Part shown: piece by piece, positions 43,874-53,594 of the stretch
Position numbering within the stretch: position 1 is the first letter of the stretch
Layout: every line of letters begins with the position of its first letter
DNA from: Leucobacter zeae
Lineage (GTDB): Bacteria > Actinomycetota > Actinomycetes > Actinomycetales > Microbacteriaceae
Direction: 5' to 3'
NCBI RefSeq assembly: GCF_016758175.1
Contig: NZ_QYAB01000001.1
Location: forward strand, 1,591,850-1,655,849
Length of the DNA stretch: 64,000 bases
Notes under the pieces: model-generated
Told to the model about the DNA's origin: nothing
Seen by the model: the letters and a program-made list of their open reading frames with translations, nothing else
Databases searched by the model: none
Made by a program: the position numbers and the translations under genes

Positions 43874-44791
43874 ATGTCCGGTGCGGATAAGCGAGACGAG
43901 ATCCGGAACGCTCTCGAATCGACCCGCGCACAGTTCGAAGCGACGAACGCCCGGATCGAGGCCCGTGCCGGACGCAATCTCGTGTTCGCGATCGGCTCGG
44001 GGCTCGTCTTCGGCGGGGTGTTCCTGGCGAGCCTGCTGCTCGTGAAGCAGGTGTTCGTCGGACTCGTCGCGGTCCTCGTTGCCGTCGCGCTCGTCGAGCT
44101 CGCCGCAGCGTTCCGCGTCGCCGGCCGACGCGTGCCCCGCGTGGGGGTGGTGCTCGCCGGTCTCGTGGTCGTCGCGGGGGCGTTCTTCTTCGGCGCGCAG
44201 GGGATGCTGCTCGGGCTGTTCGCCGGATCCGCTCTGCTCGTCGTCTGGCGGCTCGTCGAGGGACTCGTGCCCGCGTGGGAGACGCCGCCGCGCACGCTGG
44301 TGCGCGACGTGTTCTCGGGGCTGTTCACGCTCGTCTACGTCGCCTTCCTCGCATCGTTCACGGTGCTGCTGATCGCTGCGGACGGCGGCGAGTGGTGGGT
44401 GTTCGCGCTCGTACTGGTCGTGGTCTCGGTCGACGTCGGCGCATACGCTGCAGGGGTCTCCTTCGGCAAGCACAAGATGACGCCGAGGATCAGCCCGAAC
44501 AAGACGTGGGAGGGCTTCGCCGGCGCCGCCGTCGTCGCCACAGGCGCCGGGATCGGCGTGGCGGTGCTCGCACTCGAGCAGCCGTGGTGGATCGGCGCGA
44601 TCCTCGGCGCGGTCGTGCTGCTGACGGCCACCGGCGGCGACCTGACGGAGTCGCTCATCAAACGCAATCTGGGGGTCAAGGACATGAGCTCGTGGATCCC
44701 GGGTCACGGGGGCTTTCTCGATCGACTCGACTCGCTGCTGCCCTCCGCGGTCGGCGTCTACGGCATCGCGCTCGCGGTGGGGGTGGTGTGA
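43874..44791 (+). CDS. cdsA: Phosphatidate cytidylyltransferase
   Basis: A 305-residue integral membrane enzyme making CDP-diacylglycerol for phospholipid synthesis. A charged N-terminal stretch of 35 residues, possibly helical, precedes about eight membrane segments. The C-terminal signature is clear: GGDLTESLIKRNLGVKDMSSWIPGHGGFLDRLDSLL, with the metal-binding Asp residues. The stop overlaps the start of the next gene by 1 nt (TGATG). Confidence 0.96.
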   Translation: MSGADKRDEIRNALESTRAQFEATNARIEARAGRNLVFAIGSGLVFGGVFLASLLLVKQVFVGLVAVLVAVALVELAAAFRVAGRRVPRVGVVLAGLVVVAGAFFFGAQGMLLGLFAGSALLVVWRLVEGLVPAWETPPRTLVRDVFSGLFTLVYVAFLASFTVLLIAADGGEWWVFALVLVVVSVDVGAYAAGVSFGKHKMTPRISPNKTWEGFAGAAVVATGAGIGVAVLALEQPWWIGAILGAVVLLTATGGDLTESLIKRNLGVKDMSSWIPGHGGFLDRLDSLLPSAVGVYGIALAVGVV

Positions 44792-45405
44792 TGACCGAGG
44801 GACGGAGCACGCGCGACTCCCAGCGGGAGCAGCGCCGCGGCGGGCACAATGGAACGGTGCACAACTCGTTCCCGCTCGCCACCGGTTCCCAGCCCGGCTA
44901 CGCTCCCGACCAGGTCGAGGAGTTCCTCGCGCAGGCGCGCGCCGCCTACGAGGGATCGGGCGACGCGAAGCTGACCTCGGACGACCTGCGGTCGACGGCG
45001 TTCGGGATGCGTCGCGGCGGATACGCGGTGCGCTACGTGGACGCCGCGATCGACCGGCTCGAGGAGGTCTTCTTCGAGCGGGAGCGCCGCGCGCGGGTCC
45101 GCGAGGCGGGGGAGGAGGCCTGGTGGGACGAGACCAGGCAACTGCTCTCAGAGGTGCGCGGGCGGCTGCAGCGTCCAGCGGGGAGACGATTCAAGCGGCG
45201 CGGGATCTTCGCGACCGGCTACCGCCGCTCCCAGGTGGACGCGTTCCTCGACCGCGTCTCCGAGATGTTCGAGCGCCGCGAGATCGCGATCCAGCCCTCG
45301 GAGGTCAGGGACGTCGTCTTCCACGCGCAGTGGCGGGGATACGACGAGGACCAGGTGGACGCGCTCCTCGACGGGGTCGTCGAGCTCATCCTGTCCACGC
45401 GCTGA
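44791..45405 (+). CDS. DivIVA (DivI1A) domain protein
   Basis: A 204-residue soluble protein with four GY-x(4)-VD/VE-x-FL/LL-type motifs: PGYAPDQVEEFL, GGYAVRYVDAAID, TGYRRSQVDAFLD and RGYDEDQVDALLD. They form two copies of the DivI1A-type membrane-curvature/polar-targeting module, separated by a charged helix (about 85-130). ATG 44791 overlaps cdsA. GTG 44857 is an alternative start preceded by CACAAT plus 6 nt in leaderless spacing, so the first 22 residues may be absent. A scaffold at poles or septum is plausible but not shown. Confidence 0.85.
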   Translation: MTEGRSTRDSQREQRRGGHNGTVHNSFPLATGSQPGYAPDQVEEFLAQARAAYEGSGDAKLTSDDLRSTAFGMRRGGYAVRYVDAAIDRLEEVFFERERRARVREAGEEAWWDETRQLLSEVRGRLQRPAGRRFKRRGIFATGYRRSQVDAFLDRVSEMFERREIAIQPSEVRDVVFHAQWRGYDEDQVDALLDGVVELILSTR

Positions 45406-46510: not shown

Positions 46511-47041
46511 TTAGAAGAGCGTCGGGGGACCCGCGGGCGCGCTCAGGTCCACTTCCGCGACCGGAACGGGACCCGCTCCGGCGATCCCCGGGCCGCGCTC
46601 CGGCTCACGGCCGGCTTGGAAGGCGGTAGCAGCGGCGCGCGCGCGATCGTCAGCTGCTTCGTTCAACGGATGGCCGGCATGCCCCTTCACCCACTGGAAG
46701 CGGACCTCGCGCCCGGCGAGCGCCGCGTCGAGCTGCTCGAGCAGCTCTCGGTTGAGGACGGGTTTCCCGTCTGCCTTGCGCCAACCGCGGCGCTTCCACC
46801 CGGGCATCCACTGGGTCACCGAGTTGATCACGTACTGGCTGTCGCACAGCACGAGCAGGGGTTCTGCTGCGCGCGACTCGGTCGCGCGCAGCAGATCGAG
46901 CACGGCCATGAGCTCGCCCTGGTTGTTGGTGGCGCGCGGCCAGCCGCCCGCGCGCCACTGGCGGTCGTCGACGACCCAGGCCCAGCCGGCAGGCCCGGGA
47001 TTGCCCAGTGCCGAACCGTCGGCTGCGGCCGTGATCGTCAC
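46511..47041 (-). CDS. rnhA: Ribonuclease HI
   Basis: A 176-residue RNase H1 that degrades RNA in RNA-DNA hybrids. The four-carboxylate site is complete: Asp8 in ADGSALGNPG, Glu43 in NNQGEL, Asp67 in LCDSQYV and Asp131 in NEAADDRAR, with the catalytic-loop His121 in KGHAGHP. A Pro/Ala-rich tail of 35 residues follows the domain. GTG 47041 overlaps the stop of the upstream coiled-coil gene by 4 nt (GTGA), so the two are translationally coupled. Confidence 0.95.
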   Translation of the reverse strand: MTITAAADGSALGNPGPAGWAWVVDDRQWRAGGWPRATNNQGELMAVLDLLRATESRAAEPLLVLCDSQYVINSVTQWMPGWKRRGWRKADGKPVLNRELLEQLDAALAGREVRFQWVKGHAGHPLNEAADDRARAAATAFQAGREPERGPGIAGAGPVPVAEVDLSAPAGPPTLF

Positions 47042-50000
47042 GCGTCGCGCCCGTCAGCGTGGGGAGCGATGCGGGGGACCGCGCGGGTGTCGTCGTCGGC
47101 CCCTCCGTCCACGCTCTCCGCGACCGGTCGGTCGACGAGGCGACCCGCGACCGTGCTCATCTTCTGCGCGTTCGTGATCACCTCTCCGAGGCTCTCGAAG
47201 TACCGGGCGACCGCTCCGCGCTCCACCTTCAGCTGGGTCATGCGGTCCTCGGCGGCAGCGAGCACCTTGGCGGCGCGCTCCTCCGCCGCGGCGAAGGTGG
47301 TCTGCGCGCGCCGCTCGGCTTCGAGCACGGTCTCGGCGGCGCGGCGCTCGGCATCGGCGCGCGTGCGTCGCGCGTCCTGCTCGGCCTCGGAGGTGACGCG
47401 CTCGTACTCCTCGCGCGCGGCATCGAGCTGCGCGCGCAGTTCCTCGAGTTCTGCCGTGGTCGCCTCGAGCTCGAGCTTCGCCGTATCGGCTGCGGCGCGC
47501 TGGCGCGTCGCGAGGTCGGTCTCGAGCTCCTCCCGCTGCTGCGCGGAAGCGGTGCGGAACGTGCGGGTGTCGGCCTCGATCTGCTCGCGCAATCGCTGCG
47601 CTGCGTCCTCCGTCTCGGCGCGCAGCGCCGCCAGGCGGGCCTCTTCTCCTGCGCGGTACTCCGCGAGCTCCGCGACCGTGTCCGCGCGCAGCAGGTCGGT
47701 CTCCTCGGTGACCGCCGCGCGTTGGGCCTCGACCTCTCGGGCGATCGCGGCGGCCTGGGCCTCGCGTTCGCTCGCGAGGTCGCTGCGATGCTGCTCGAGC
47801 GCCGCCGCGATCGCGCGCTCGTGCTCCTCCCGCTCTCGGGCGATATCCGTCGCGAGCTTGGCGCGATCCCGCTCCGACTGCAATGCGAACGCTTCGCGCT
47901 CGAGCCCGAGCGCCTCGGCCGCCTCCTCGCGCTGGATGCGCAGCCGCTCATCGGCAGCAGCTGCTTCGTCGGCGATCCGGAGCTCGTGCTCCCGGACGCG
48001 CGCGGCGATGCGCTCGTCGTGCATCATCGACTCATCGGCGATGCGCGCCTCGTGCTGCTGCAGCGCGACGGCCATTTCGCGTTCGCGCTCGGCTCGGGCG
48101 TCGGCGAGTTCGCGTTCCTGGGCCTCCCGCTCGGCGTCGATGCGCGCCCGGTGGGTCTCCCACTCGGCGATCAGCCGATCCTGGTGGGCGACGAGCTCGC
48201 CGCCGATGCGCGACTCGTGCTGTTCGCGTTCGCGCGCGATCCGCATCTCGTGCTGCCCACGAGCCTCACCGAGGCGGCGTTCCTGGGCCGTGCGCTCCCG
48301 CTCCAGATCCGTCGCGTGCTGGGCGAGCTCGCCCGCGATGCGCGCTGCAACGGAGTCCTGCTCGGAGCGCAGCCGCGTGTCGTGCTGCTCGAGCTCCAGC
48401 GCGATGCGGGCGTCGTGCTCGGCGCGCTCCTGCGCGAGCGCCTGCTCGAACGCTTCGCGCTCCGCGGCGAGCAGCGAGGCCTGACCGTCGCGCTCGGAAC
48501 CGAGGGCGGCGTCGTGGGCAGTGCGCTCGGCCCTCAGTGCGGTGTCGTGGGCCTTCCGCTCCGTGGTGAGCTTGGTGACGTGCGCATCGAGCTCGGCCGC
48601 GATCCGTGCGTCGTGCTCGGCGCGTTCGGTCGAGATCTTCGCGGTGTGGGCCTCGAGCTCCGCAGCGATGCTCGCGTCGTGCTCGGCGCGCTCGGTCGAG
48701 ATCCGCGAGGTGTGCGCCTCGAGCTCGGTGCTCAGACGTGCGTCGTGCTCGGCGCGCTCGCGCTCGATGCGCGACGTATGCGCTTCGAGCTCCGAGGCGA
48801 GCTTCGCGTCGTGCTCGGCGCGCTCGGCCGCGAGCGTGGTGTCGTGCGTCGCCCGCTCGGAGGCGAGCTTCGCGTCGTGGGCCGCGCGCTCGCCCGAGAG
48901 CGCGGTATCGTGGGCGTCGCGTTCAGCGGCGATCGCGGCTTCGTGGACGCTCCGCTCCGACGCGAGTCTCGTCTCGTGGGCCTCGCGCTCGGTCGTCAGC
49001 GCGGTGTCGTGGGCCGCGCGCTCGGTCGCGATGGCGGTCTCGTGCGCGCCGAACTCCTCGGCGATCCGGGCCGCGTGCGCGGCCAGCTCGGCGGCGAGCC
49101 GCGCTTCCTGCTCGTCCTGCTCGTCGCGCAGGCGCGCACGCAGCGTGACCTTCTCGCTCTGCAGGGCCTCGTCGTGCGCGGCGCGGGCCTCCGCCAGAGC
49201 GAGGGACTGCGCCTCGCGCTCGGCATCGATCCGGTCCGCATGGGCGGACGCGGCCTCGGCGAGGCGGCGCTCCTGATCGTCGCGCGCAGCGGCGAGCTCC
49301 GCGTCCGAACGCGCGCGCTGCGCCGCTCGCTCCTGGACGGCGAGCTCGTCGGCGCGCTCGCGCTCGCGCTCGGCCTGAGCCGCGAGCGTCTCGAGCTCGC
49401 TCTGCAGCGCGGTCTGCTCGCGGGCGATGCGCGCCTCGTGCTCCTGGCGCTCCTGCGCGATCCGCTCGACGTGCGCCTGCAGCTCCGACGCCAGTCGCCG
49501 GTCGTGCTGCTCGCGCTCCGACGCGAGCGCGGCGTCGTGCTCATCGCGCTCCTGGGCGATGCGGCCGCGGAGGGTCTCGATCTCGGTCTCGAACGCGCGT
49601 CGCTGCGCCGCGAACCCGTCCTCCAGCTCGCGCGACCGCTCGGTGTGCCGCTCCTCGAGCTCGGCCTCCTCCCGCTGCCGGCGCGCCTCGAACTCCGCAC
49701 GCGCCCGTTCGCCGTCGCGAGTGAGACGCGCCCGTTCCAGCTCGGCCTCGCGCTCCTCCTCCTCGCGGCGACGGGCCAGCTCCTGCGCCTTGCGCTCGGT
49801 CTCGGCGCGGAGCTCGGCCGCTGCCGTCGCCGCGTCGATGGACAACCGCTCGGCCTCGGCCCTGGCGCGGGCGAGCAGCTCCTCGGCATCGCGGTGCGCG
49901 GTCTCCCGCTCGGCGATGCTCTCGCGCTCGGCGGAGCTGCGGGTGAGCTCCGCGGCGCGCCTGGCCTCGTCGAGCAGCCGCTCGCGCTCGGCATTGGCCG

Positions 50001-50457
50001 CCGCGGACTGCGCGGCCAGGTCGCTGCGCGCTCCCGTGATGACGATCTCGGCCTGTTCCGCGGCAGAGGCGAGCATCTCGTCCGCGCGCGCCTGAGCGCT
50101 CGTGAGCACCCGGTTGCTCTCCTCCTCCGAGGAGCGGCGCAGCTTCTCGGCGTCGAGATCGGCCTGCGCCATGAGGCGCTGGGCGTGATCCTCCGCGACC
50201 TGGAGGCTCTTCTCGACGCGCAGGCCGAGCCCGGAGTATCCGGACGCTCCGAGCTCCGCGACCTGCTCCTGCAGTTCGGCGATGAGCTGGAGCTGCTCCT
50301 GGCCCGTGCGCGTGGCCTGCTGATGCGCCTGCTGCAGCGACTCGAGGTGCGCCTCGAGGCCCTGAACCTGCCCGGTGAGCGCGCCGACCCTCGCGTCGAC
50401 CTCCTCACGGTTGTAGCCGCGGAAGGCAGGAGTGAACGGTTGGGCTGATTCGGACAC
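47038..50457 (-). CDS. Giant hendecad coiled-coil protein with DivIVA-like N-terminus (Scy/FilP-like)
   Basis: An 1139-residue cytoskeleton-like protein. GTG 50457 follows GGAGGCCAC; upstream in-frame codons have no site. Residues about 8-30 (FTPAFRGYNREEVDARVGAL) are a DivI1A-type targeting motif. A heptad-like coil follows to about 300. Residues 303-940 are 58 consecutive 11-residue units in one unbroken register, consensus E-R/L-x-A/E-H-D-x-x-I/L-A-x, with His at position 5 in 36 of them. A further helix and an acidic tail end the protein. Hendecad-rich coils with a polar targeting head recall Scy and FilP, which organise growth poles and intermediate-filament-like bundles in Streptomyces. 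It leads an operon with rnhA. Confidence 0.85.
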   Translation of the reverse strand: MSESAQPFTPAFRGYNREEVDARVGALTGQVQGLEAHLESLQQAHQQATRTGQEQLQLIAELQEQVAELGASGYSGLGLRVEKSLQVAEDHAQRLMAQADLDAEKLRRSSEEESNRVLTSAQARADEMLASAAEQAEIVITGARSDLAAQSAAANAERERLLDEARRAAELTRSSAERESIAERETAHRDAEELLARARAEAERLSIDAATAAAELRAETERKAQELARRREEEEREAELERARLTRDGERARAEFEARRQREEAELEERHTERSRELEDGFAAQRRAFETEIETLRGRIAQERDEHDAALASEREQHDRRLASELQAHVERIAQERQEHEARIAREQTALQSELETLAAQAERERERADELAVQERAAQRARSDAELAAARDDQERRLAEAASAHADRIDAEREAQSLALAEARAAHDEALQSEKVTLRARLRDEQDEQEARLAAELAAHAARIAEEFGAHETAIATERAAHDTALTTEREAHETRLASERSVHEAAIAAERDAHDTALSGERAAHDAKLASERATHDTTLAAERAEHDAKLASELEAHTSRIERERAEHDARLSTELEAHTSRISTERAEHDASIAAELEAHTAKISTERAEHDARIAAELDAHVTKLTTERKAHDTALRAERTAHDAALGSERDGQASLLAAEREAFEQALAQERAEHDARIALELEQHDTRLRSEQDSVAARIAGELAQHATDLERERTAQERRLGEARGQHEMRIAREREQHESRIGGELVAHQDRLIAEWETHRARIDAEREAQERELADARAEREREMAVALQQHEARIADESMMHDERIAARVREHELRIADEAAAADERLRIQREEAAEALGLEREAFALQSERDRAKLATDIAREREEHERAIAAALEQHRSDLASEREAQAAAIAREVEAQRAAVTEETDLLRADTVAELAEYRAGEEARLAALRAETEDAAQRLREQIEADTRTFRTASAQQREELETDLATRQRAAADTAKLELEATTAELEELRAQLDAAREEYERVTSEAEQDARRTRADAERRAAETVLEAERRAQTTFAAAEERAAKVLAAAEDRMTQLKVERGAVARYFESLGEVITNAQKMSTVAGRLVDRPVAESVDGGADDDTRAVPRIAPHADGRDA
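47638..49551 (-). repeat. 58 in-frame 33-bp units encoding the hendecad array
   Basis: The DNA of residues 303-940 is a degenerate 33-bp tandem array, best conserved around 48570-49020, where adjacent units differ by few bases. A 66-bp higher-order unit (ERAEHDAxLxx followed by ELEAHTxxIxx) is repeated four times at about 48573-48836. Confidence 0.85.
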
Positions 50458-50694: not shown

Positions 50695-52629
50695 GTGCGA
50701 TATGTGCTTGCGATCGGAGCACTGGTGCTTTCCGGAGTGCTACTGCTGCTGGGCATCGGCCAGCGCACCTTCCTCGCGGGTCCATCGGAGATCAGATTCC
50801 CCGTGGACACCGTCGCCGAGACCGGGTACGCCGTCGTGAGCGGATCCGAGTTCGGCAAGCTGCCCGGCCAGGCGAACGTGGTGGTCAAGGGCGGCGAGGC
50901 GTTCGTCGCGACCGGTGCGGAACGCGATGTGCAGGGATGGGTGGCCGAGTTCCCCCACGCGGAGCTCTCAGTGGACACGCAGCAGCGCCGCCTGATGAGC
51001 GCCCTCGTGGCCGGTGCGGTCGCGAGCGACGACGCGCCCGCGGAGTCCGACGCCGCGCCCGCCGCCGGGCTGGATCCCCGGGGGAGCGACCTCTGGCTCG
51101 AGGAGCGATCGCTCGACGCGTCCGCGAGCGACGTCGAGGTGCAGTCGCTCCGAGTGCCGGTGTCGCTGGCTCCCGACCAGGCGGTGCTGATCGCCTCGAA
51201 CGGCACCGACCCGGTTCCGAGCGATCTCGCGCTCGTGTGGGTGCAGGATCGCGATACGCCGTGGGCGGGCCCGCTGCTGGCAGCCGGAGGCCTGTTCGCG
51301 CTCATCGGCGGGATCCTCTACCTGGTCGCGATCGACCACAACCGCCGCGGCCTCGGCCCGCGCCGGGGGCGCCGCGGCCCGCTGCAGGGCATCCGCAACT
51401 CGTTCGGCAGGCGGTCGCGCCGCCCAGCGACTCCGGCAGCGACCGATTCCGAAGCGGGGCGCGCCGGTCGCGACGCGGTCCGGCCCGCGGAGCCCCGCGG
51501 CCGGCGCAGGCGCCTGAGCGCGATCGTGCCCGCGGTCGGCGTGGCGGCGGCGCTCGGCCTGAGCGGCTGCTCGGCAGACTACTGGCCCGACTTCTCGTCG
51601 CAGCCGGCCGAGGAGACGCCCGCGACCGAGGCGCCGTCGGGCGTCGCCCCGGTCCCGGTCACCGACGCCCAGGCCGATCGCATCATCACGAGCGTCGCAG
51701 GCGTGGCCGCGACCGGCGACGAGGCGCTCGACGCCGAGCTGCTCGAGGAGCGCTTCACGGGCGATGCCCTCGCGCAGCGCGTCGCCAACTACAAGATCCG
51801 CGCGGAGATCCCGGACTACGGCGTCGTTCCGCCGACGATCACCGACGAAGGCCTCGACTACAACCTGGTGCAGAGCACGGAGACCTGGCCGAGGACGCTC
51901 TTCCTCACCGTCGCATCGGAGGCGGGCGGCGCGAAGGCGGCTCCCGAGGACGTGGCGGCCGAGGGCGATCAGACCGCGGACGCCACCGCCGAGGACGCGA
52001 AGGCGTCGCCGTCGCTCGCGATGATCCTCACGCAGCAGACGCCGCACGACAACTACCTCGTATCGCGCATCGTCGCGCTCCGCGGCGGGATCTCGATGCC
52101 CGCGGCCGCGCCTGCGGAGGAGGGGACCGCGCTGCTCGCCAACGACAGCACGAACCTCGTGCTGCCTCCCGAGGAGGTGGGCGCCGCGTACGCGACCCTG
52201 CTGCAGGGAGGCACCGCCGTGCCTGAGGCGGAATCGTTCGACCTGTCCTCGGATACGCTGCTCGAGAGCTACGGCAAGGCGCGCGCCGAGCAGGCCCAGA
52301 AGGCGAACGAGGACGAGGATCAGACCGTGAAGTTCTCGGCGACGGCGCGGCAGGGCGACGAGCCCGTGGTCGCCCTGTCCACGGGAACCGGCGGCGCGCT
52401 CGTCTCGACGACCGTGATCGAGGAGCAGCTCGCCGACGCGGCGGGCGGGCGCTACAAGCCCCAGGCCAAGGACGTCGTGTCGGCGCTCTCGGGGCTGAAG
52501 GGCGAACAGGACAAGATCGTGCAGGTAGTGGCGCATCAGCTGCTCTTCTACGTGCCGAGCAAGACCGACGGAGCGAAGATCGAGCTGCTCGGGGTGACGA
52601 GCGAGCTCGTGGGAGCGAGGAACGAATGA
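50695..52629 (+). CDS. Membrane protein of unknown function with internal lipobox
   Basis: A 644-residue protein I do not recognise. Hydrophobic segments lie at about 3-24, 190-213 and 274-292. The first two flank an extracytoplasmic domain of about 165 residues. An Arg-rich loop (RRGLGPRRGRRGPLQGIRN and RRRR) precedes the third, which ends LGLSGC (Cys292) followed by SADYW and an acidic Pro/Thr linker, exactly like a lipoprotein signal peptide. The C-terminal 340 residues should be outside the cell. GTG 50695 follows TAAGGAG. The stop overlaps the thioredoxin-like gene by 4 nt, so a joint role in envelope or redox protein quality control is possible but unproven. Confidence 0.8.
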   Translation: MRYVLAIGALVLSGVLLLLGIGQRTFLAGPSEIRFPVDTVAETGYAVVSGSEFGKLPGQANVVVKGGEAFVATGAERDVQGWVAEFPHAELSVDTQQRRLMSALVAGAVASDDAPAESDAAPAAGLDPRGSDLWLEERSLDASASDVEVQSLRVPVSLAPDQAVLIASNGTDPVPSDLALVWVQDRDTPWAGPLLAAGGLFALIGGILYLVAIDHNRRGLGPRRGRRGPLQGIRNSFGRRSRRPATPAATDSEAGRAGRDAVRPAEPRGRRRRLSAIVPAVGVAAALGLSGCSADYWPDFSSQPAEETPATEAPSGVAPVPVTDAQADRIITSVAGVAATGDEALDAELLEERFTGDALAQRVANYKIRAEIPDYGVVPPTITDEGLDYNLVQSTETWPRTLFLTVASEAGGAKAAPEDVAAEGDQTADATAEDAKASPSLAMILTQQTPHDNYLVSRIVALRGGISMPAAAPAEEGTALLANDSTNLVLPPEEVGAAYATLLQGGTAVPEAESFDLSSDTLLESYGKARAEQAQKANEDEDQTVKFSATARQGDEPVVALSTGTGGALVSTTVIEEQLADAAGGRYKPQAKDVVSALSGLKGEQDKIVQVVAHQLLFYVPSKTDGAKIELLGVTSELVGARNE

Positions 52630-53594
52630 TGCATCAGCAGATCCCCGGAGGGGGCATGGACCTCAGCCATCTGGCGGCCCGGGCGCAGGCCCCTCAGCCG
52701 GGCGACGGGGCGCCCGCGGCCGCCGATCCGACCGCCGCCGACGGGCAGGCGGGGCGCGTCGTCGACGTGCCGTCGCTCGTCGTGGACGTCACGGATCAGA
52801 CCTTCGAGCAGGTGGCGCAGCTCTCGTCCGTCGTGCCGGTCGTCATCGACCTGTGGGCGGAGTGGTGCCAGCCCTGCAAGACCCTCGGACCCGTGCTCGA
52901 GAAGGTCGTCGACGAGTTCGGCGGTCGGGTCATGCTCGCGAAGGTCGATGTCGACGCGAACCCCGGGTTGGCCCAGGCGTTCCAGGCCCAGTCGATCCCG
53001 ACCGTCGTCGCACTCGTCGGCGGGCGACCGGTCCCGCTCTTCCAGGGAGCGGTTCCCGAGACCCAGGTGCGCGAGGTCTTCACCCAGCTGCTGCAGCTCG
53101 CCGAGCAGCATGGAGTCACCGGTCGCGTGAGCGCGCCCGGAGCCGCAGGTGCTGAGGCCGACGCCCCCGCCGAGCCGCAGATCCCGGCCGCGCACGTGGC
53201 AGCGGTCGAGGCGGCCGAGCGCGGGGACTACGCCGGATCGATCGCGGAGTGGGAGGCGGTGCTCGCCAAGGCGCCTGCCGATGCCGAGGCGCGGGCGGCG
53301 CTCGTGCAGATGCGGCTGCTGCAGCGGCTCGACGGGCTCGGCGCCGACGAGATCCGCACGGCCGCAGCAGCGCAACCGGCGGACGCGGAGGCGCAGATGC
53401 GAGTGGCCGATCTCGACGTCGCCGGCGGTCACGTCGAAGACGCGTTCCTGCGCCTCCTCGACCTCTTCGCGGCGAGCGACCAGGATGCGCGGCCGGCGGT
53501 GCGCGAGCGCCTGCTCGAACTCTTCGAGGTCGTGGGCGTCGCGGATCCCCGCGTGATCGCCGCGCGCGGTCGCCTCGCCAACCTGCTCTACTGA
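52626..53594 (+). CDS. Thioredoxin/TPR co-chaperone, CnoX/YbbN-like
   Basis: A 322-residue cytoplasmic protein. After about 45 disordered residues a thioredoxin fold carries the redox motif WCQPC (Cys81, Cys84), followed by KTLGPVLEKVVDEF and SIPTVVALVGG. The C-terminal half (about 190-320) is Ala-rich helical repeats of TPR type (GDYAGSIAEWEAVLAKAPADAEARAAL). Unlike Escherichia coli YbbN, which has SxxC, the CxxC is intact, so it may be an active oxidoreductase. It overlaps the preceding membrane protein gene. Confidence 0.88.
   Translation: MMHQQIPGGGMDLSHLAARAQAPQPGDGAPAAADPTAADGQAGRVVDVPSLVVDVTDQTFEQVAQLSSVVPVVIDLWAEWCQPCKTLGPVLEKVVDEFGGRVMLAKVDVDANPGLAQAFQAQSIPTVVALVGGRPVPLFQGAVPETQVREVFTQLLQLAEQHGVTGRVSAPGAAGAEADAPAEPQIPAAHVAAVEAAERGDYAGSIAEWEAVLAKAPADAEARAALVQMRLLQRLDGLGADEIRTAAAAQPADAEAQMRVADLDVAGGHVEDAFLRLLDLFAASDQDARPAVRERLLELFEVVGVADPRVIAARGRLANLLY

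Follow-up and report, generated by a model that had tools for sequence, protein, structure and literature searches.

A clade-specific histidine ladder in the hendecad rod of a DivIVA-motif coiled-coil protein from Leucobacter and its sister genera

Introduction

A 64,000-nucleotide stretch of the Leucobacter zeae genome (the whole of which is called the window here) encodes a long coiled-coil protein whose central rod carries a histidine at every eleventh residue over much of its length. We ask whether this ladder of histidines is maintained by selection, which way it faces in the coiled coil, and what it may do. Hendecad coils are known as such, and among the matches listed in the open-licence PMC literature (subscription papers being outside its scope) no paper dealt with a histidine ladder of such a kind or with this protein. 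A core position occupied by histidine along most of a rod, apparently gained once and kept while the length of the rod drifts, would amount to a natural experiment on what a coiled-coil core tolerates. It also supplies a ready-made repeat with which rods tunable by pH or metal could be tested, as well as an entry point to the Leucobacter cytoskeleton, and may represent a natural rod with an assembly that depends on stacked histidines.

Results

The gene and its neighbourhood

The gene lies on the reverse strand of the window. Its features and those of its neighbours (profile matches where stated) are the following:

46511..47041, (-), rnhA (RNase HI), downstream and co-oriented, profile match
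47038..50457, (-), gene of the histidine-hendecad coiled-coil protein, 1139 aa, most likely GTG start at 50457
47143..47505, (-), conserved C-terminal region, about residues 985-1105, ..ERGAVARYFESLGEV.., from orthologue conservation
47638..49551, (-), rod of 58 hendecads (residues 303-940); position 5 is His in 36 of them, position 9 Leu/Ile in 51
48496..49089, (-), uninterrupted run of 18 hendecads (units 15-32), each with His at position 5, the densest His
49978..50457, (-), conserved N-terminal region, residues 1-160, used as orthologue query
50395..50421, (-), DivIVA-like motif RGYNREEVD, residues 13-21, fitting RGYDxxEVD / GY[DN]xx[QE]V[DN] (PMC9858780)
50695..52629, (+), divergent lipoprotein-like gene, weak match to the SCO2278 family below cut-off, syntenic in Microbacteriaceae
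52626..53594, (+), thioredoxin-TPR (Trx-TPR) protein gene, syntenic marker, profile match

We take the GTG at 50457 as the most likely start because GTG or TTG stands at the aligned place in 49 of 53 ladder-bearing orthologues. At the other end, the stop codon overlaps the start of rnhA by 4 nt. No Pfam family matched the protein at E 0.1, and a search against solved structures returned 0 matches at E 0.001. A 1129-aa open frame on the forward strand (47059-50448), antisense to the gene, is probably a by-product of GC-rich repeats.

A hendecad register with histidine at position 5

The translation of residues 303-940 divides into exactly 58 units of eleven residues with histidine at position 5 in 36 of them, as the earlier note on this DNA had read it, and position 9 is mostly Leu (29 units) or Ile (22 units), also in agreement with that reading. 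The same note called the register unbroken; this holds for the phase, which is continuous over residues 299-936 under a model trained on these very units, but position 9 is polar or charged in units 6, 7, 51, 57 and 58. At position 5, the 22 units without histidine carry eight Gln, four Leu, four Ala, two Phe and four residues found once each. Position 2 is Arg in 32 of the 58 units and hence mostly not hydrophobic.

Periodicity was measured against shuffled sequences. The phase coherence of histidine at period 11 over the whole protein is 0.86, compared with a maximum of 0.43 in 2000 shuffles, and in the rod the power of Leu/Ile/Val/Met/Phe at 3.667 residues per turn is 45.0, compared with a maximum of 12.0 in 500 shuffles. 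The same hydrophobic power is 0.7 at the heptad value of 3.5 and 0.1 at 51/14, a comparison that rests on all 638 residues of the rod, windows of 99 residues being unable to separate 11/3 from 51/14. The register of the rod is 11/3 alone, far beyond chance, and the proposal of a pure hendecad run as opposed to a 51-residue pattern stands. The length of about 95 nm given in the earlier note (638 x 0.1485 nm) holds only with a continuous helix. The AlphaFold2 single-chain model, which cannot decide the oligomer, is mostly helix at low confidence (mean pLDDT 62.9) and breaks within the rod at residues 490-502, 653-664, 693-703 and 865-884.

Distribution and origin of the ladder

Searches with the N-terminal region gave a match in every one of the 36 further Leucobacter genomes examined and in 212 of 299 genomes of the family, its own included; the nearest named relatives are Leucobacter species. 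From the homologues we defined a ladder set of 53 full-length proteins, 43 from Leucobacter (the L. zeae protein included) and 10 from six sister genera, and an outside set of 39, comprising 37 from Microbacteriaceae or titled close to them and 2 from Actinomyces. Rows were excluded as truncated (L063, L076), as repeat genomes or truncated (L126-L129, L131, L132, L134-L144, L164), or as a repeat of L119 (L148).

All 53 full-length clade proteins carry the ladder at varying strength: they are 816-1194 residues long and contain 17-52 histidines, with a longest run of histidines at spacing 11 of between 3 and 22. The 39 outside homologues measure 455-969 residues and contain 1-12 histidines, in spacing-11 runs of at most 2. 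The distinct variant that had been proposed from the single sequence is real, but it is a property of a clade and not of one protein. In a tree built from the N- and C-terminal parts only (86 rows; a quicker tree was also made), the ladder proteins form one clade with a support of 100 after re-rooting, and the ladder takes one change of state. The ladder seems to have a single origin in the ancestor of Leucobacter and the six sister genera and to have been kept since.

Hendecad stretches are found by the same loose register model in 38 of the 39 outside homologues, whereas position 5 of their 570 units is Ala in 143, Thr in 102, Leu in 69, Val in 43 and His in only 13. The hendecad rod therefore looks older, with the histidine ladder as the novelty.

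Gene order bears on whether the outside homologues are comparable. The divergent SCO2278-like gene with the Trx-TPR gene behind it has the same layout at 31 of 31 loci outside the clade (L148-L179 without L164), and at clade loci the two genes are present in 23/23 and 22/23 cases, respectively. Given this shared arrangement, the shorter homologues are most likely true orthologues. In 21 of 23 clade loci, the other two being cut short, an rnhA-like frame is present within 1 kb downstream, as against 0 of the 31 outside loci. A query with part of the rod itself (units 16-32) matched its own genome alone among 198 genomes of the order at E 1e-15, a weak negative lacking a positive control, since scoring stopped at 17 first-look candidates in each genome and the draw contained no further Leucobacter.

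Some ladders are eroded. L079 and L108 have 14 position-5 histidines each, and in small genomes (1.4-1.9 Mb) of the genus g27 (L110, L111, L114, L117) the ladder is partly eroded, with 8-14 histidines at position 5. Separately, in the homologue from Salinibacterium sedimenticola (L153), which has no histidine ladder, the hendecads within about residues 191-761 have Lys as the commonest residue at position 5 (9 units), Val at position 2 (12) and Ile at position 9 (15). From one genus to another, the hendecad register seems to tolerate cores of different chemistry.

Conservation of position 5

To avoid circularity, the register was re-assigned with histidine hidden and position 5 ignored. In this histidine-blind register 1350 of the 1485 histidines in hendecad segments of the 53 clade proteins fall at position 5, compared with 13 of 92 in the 39 proteins outside the clade. 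Conservation was measured in 16 disjoint orthologue pairs, that is 32 of the 53 proteins, using an alignment matrix that rewards His-His matches and so introduces a mild bias. Of the eleven positions, conservation is highest at position 5 (identity 608/659, 0.92), followed by position 1 (589/660, 0.89), position 2 (553/660, 0.84) and position 9 (545/667, 0.82), while the other seven range from 0.66 to 0.75 (pooled 3277/4644). Histidine is kept at position 5 in 420 of 451 cases versus 98 of 134 outside the hendecad segments of the same pairs, and position-5 histidine codons show 54 synonymous versus 31 amino-acid differences.

Arg is one transition away from the histidine codons. When position 5 is histidine in only one partner of a pair, the other partner carries Gln in 24 of 31 cases, Tyr in 1 and Arg in 0, counted without regard to the direction of change. 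The excess of Gln has a p-value of 1e-9 on the assumption that all non-synonymous single-base neighbours are equal.

Length variation and DNA repeats

Indels within the rod are a multiple of 11 residues in 219 of 256 cases, compared with 9 of 181 outside the rod (the pairs overlap and are not independent). The length of the rod drifts mostly in whole 11-residue units, a pattern that slippage of 33 bp could also explain without selection. DNA repeats of 33, 66, 99 and 132 bp occur in 48490-49050, and repeats of 33 bp in 49424-49552; because of the former, more recent duplication of units is suggested around 48490-49050 (units 15-32). Residues 488-709 contain five blocks of 11, 11, 33, 11 and 77 residues that 80% or more of 20 aligned orthologues do not have, and most of these blocks fall within the tandem-repeat region.

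These repeats, and the fact that the blocks specific to the L. zeae protein come in whole units, are what one would expect if the ladder were a neutral by-product, with a single histidine-bearing unit amplified by tandem duplication and its histidine merely copied. We consider this highly improbable: the repeats span part of the rod and histidine is present in other units too, position 5 is the position most conserved between orthologues, and its histidine codons have changed more often synonymously than to another amino acid.

Geometry of the core

The hendecad core is given as a, d, h in the accessible text of PMC9858780 and as a, d, e, h in that of PMC6131620. The four most conserved positions of the rod, 9, 1, 2 and 5, correspond to a, d, e and h, with histidine at h. 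Because conservation is highest at exactly these core positions, we conclude that the ladder is selected and that, as far as the sequences tell, it is most likely core-facing. The earlier note had likewise placed histidine on a core-facing stripe, which both geometry and conservation support; the stripe that it drew through positions 2, 5 and 9 is better replaced by positions 9, 1, 2 and 5.

The hydrophobic moment points to 69-71 degrees and the conservation vector to 44, with histidine at 33 and Leu/Ile at 65. In a straight-helix model the histidines are 11-37 degrees from the direction of the axis, and the modelled distances between their Calpha atoms are 5.4-6.8 A across a dimer (three phase choices) and 7.5-8.5 A between neighbours in a trimer. 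Across the 2083 units of the clade, Leu or Ile forms a stripe at position 9 in 88%, 33 degrees from histidine, and position 5 is Gln in 14%. The two positions are coupled: the ratio of Leu to Ile/Val at position 9 is 248:43 with Gln at position 5 and 599:714 with His, and Gln goes with Leu in the same direction in 49 of 53 proteins (raw counts, kinship ignored). Such coupling is expected if both positions share one interface. An acid at position 1 accompanies histidine in 1172 of 1342 units, versus 505 of 741 other units.

It is unlikely that the stripe instead faces outward, or that the rod is a single alpha-helix with i/i+4 charge pairs, and that the histidines bind a partner such as membrane, polyphosphate or a cell-wall enzyme. 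The rod does have low hydrophobicity, with about one Leu/Ile per 11 residues, 15.5% aliphatic plus aromatic residues and 39% charged residues, and with so poor a hydrophobic core a single stable helix is conceivable; charge pairs are many (Arg/Lys at position 2 with an acid at position 6 in 932 of 1196 units), and the FilP and Scy coiled coils are reported as cellulose binders in the accessible part of PMC6224456. Against an outward stripe stand the continuous Leu/Ile stripe so near to histidine, the residues found at position 5 where homologues lack the ladder, most of them small or hydrophobic, and the coupling of positions 5 and 9.

Relation to DivIVA, FilP and Scy

The N-terminal motif matches the pattern GY[DN]xx[QE]V[DN], the definition of PMC9858780, with GYNREEVD at residues 14-21, and R13, G14, Y15 and V20 are invariant across 21 aligned sequences. 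After the motif, where DivIVA-like proteins have a dimeric heptad coiled coil, a helix is predicted over residues 17-69 at block pLDDT values of 49-62, and residues 1-99 give no clear 3.5 signal. Like DivIVA/Wag31, the protein combines the motif with a coiled coil, and its N-terminus has weak similarity to the NCBIfam models at 17.3 versus a cut-off of 22 bits (TIGR03544) and 19.5 versus 260 bits (NF050102). With these scores below the curated cut-offs and no Pfam match at E 0.1, the protein falls short of DivIVA proper (PF05103 / TIGR03544, NF050102); a separate 240-aa DivIVA-type open frame is present elsewhere in the genome. It also differs from PolyDIV proteins, which have two or more such domains in tandem, in that a single copy of the motif was seen in its 1139 residues.

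FilP and Scy have a 51-residue (7+11x4) super-repeat, unlike the present protein, which has no 51-residue signal. They are described in the accessible text of PMC9858780 as hendecad-containing actinobacterial rods, grouped with DivIVA and GpsB, in a range of lengths from under 200 to over 1000 residues. Our protein shares with them RGY[ND]xxEVD at the N-terminus, a long Ala-rich coiled coil with extended hendecads, and actinobacterial origin. A methylmalonyl-CoA epimerase adjoins Scy and some FilP clusters (PMC9858780, same text), whereas the neighbours here are rnhA, SLT, the lipoprotein-like gene and Trx-TPR; no epimerase over the TIGR03081 cut-off was found in the genome, and its three weak matches lie outside the 64-kb window. 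Since the 51-residue feature and the epimerase neighbourhood were both looked for and neither was found, we did not file the protein as Scy or FilP, and the likeness lies in the motif and the general build; to judge by these, it would work in the manner of FilP and Scy. The histidine at h also sets the Leucobacter rod apart, homologues outside the clade mostly having Ala, Thr, Leu or Val there. We regard the protein, by sequence comparison, as a real, constrained and clade-specific variant of the hendecad rods of DivIVA-motif cytoskeletal proteins.

One order-level homologue (L040) adjoins a thiolase gene, possibly a remnant of the metabolic gene surroundings that some FilP clusters are reported to have.

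A proposed structure for the rod

Our main reading, to which we give a probability of about 0.5, is that the protein is a DivIVA-motif, FilP/Scy-like cytoskeletal coiled coil. Its central rod would have been remodelled a single time, in the common ancestor of Leucobacter and the sister genera, to give a pure hendecad coil that contains a polar layer of histidines. We infer that the histidines are buried in an oligomer as follows. Chains would pair in parallel through the N-terminal motif, and the rod would be an almost straight coiled coil with an 11/3 register. Along its core, Leu/Ile at a would take turns with His at h, and Glu at d and Arg at e from the neighbouring chains would lie to either side. 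Hydrogen bonds made by the stacked layers of His or Gln, across the interface and to the Glu one turn earlier (i-4), would fix in-register parallel pairing and prevent sliding or aggregation of the long rod, in a core less stable than a hydrophobic one. At about 95 nm, the rod could be a spacer, or the subunit of a filament, in scaffolds for cell shape or polar growth.

Gln does not titrate and is a poor metal ligand. Because Gln so often stands where the partner protein has histidine, the exchange favours a structural, hydrogen-bonding polar layer over obligate metal binding, and does not favour pH or metal sensing. It is accordingly somewhat doubtful that the ladder is a switch, the main rival reading and the response to pH or metal suggested in the earlier note. 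In such a switch, protonation or a metal (zinc, nickel or copper) would act cooperatively through the 36 stacked layers to make the rod assemble or dissolve, and the scaffold would possibly sense cytoplasmic or local pH or metal. Such a switch would agree with the strong retention of histidine at the probably inward position 5 and with the accompanying acid at position 1, which would shift the histidine pKa or complete a metal site; filaments designed so that each subunit buries six or nine histidines disassemble within 0.1-0.3 pH units (PMC11286511, accessible text). Those filaments, however, switch at about pH 3-4.5, far below the usual cytoplasmic pH. The 14% of units with Gln, the threefold variation in histidine number (17 to 52) across the 53 proteins and the near absence of a Cys ligand (1 Cys in all their hendecad segments) also speak against a switch.

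A stronger form, in our view improbable, makes the rod with its dozens of stacked core histidines a cooperative proton- or metal-gated cytoskeletal element that changes sharply between two states, one assembled and one dissolved, or else one stiff and one soft, many weakly titrating layers per chain sharpening the switch. To our knowledge, cooperative proton or metal gating by stacked core histidines is so far known from designed filaments only. The pH-responsive designed filaments of PMC11286511 resemble the proposed rod in their repeated buried polar histidine layers within helical bundles; unlike it they are engineered and use His-Asn-Thr networks with six or nine histidines per subunit, and the accessible text mentions no hendecad design.

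Among natural hendecad coils, the peripheral stalks of rotary ATPases (PMC6131620) resemble the main reading in their a-d-e-h core and in the abundance of Ala, Leu, Glu and Arg in their subunits E and G. They differ from the Leucobacter rod in belonging to the ATPase and in their length of about 14-17 nm, and the accessible text of that source mentions no histidine ladder.

A tandem-DivIVA gene in the window

A gene at 44275-45405 on the forward strand encodes a tandem DivIVA-domain protein, with a TIGR03543 score of 174.3 bits (cut-off 154.2) over a matched part of about 44878-45396. About 1.6 kb separates its end from that of the coiled-coil gene, and upstream of it are tsf, an amino-acid-kinase-family gene at the UMP kinase position, frr and a cdsA-like gene. 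By its predicted domains this protein fits the PolyDIV group of PMC9858780, where most PolyDIV clusters are reported, in the accessible text, to lie near a UMP kinase.
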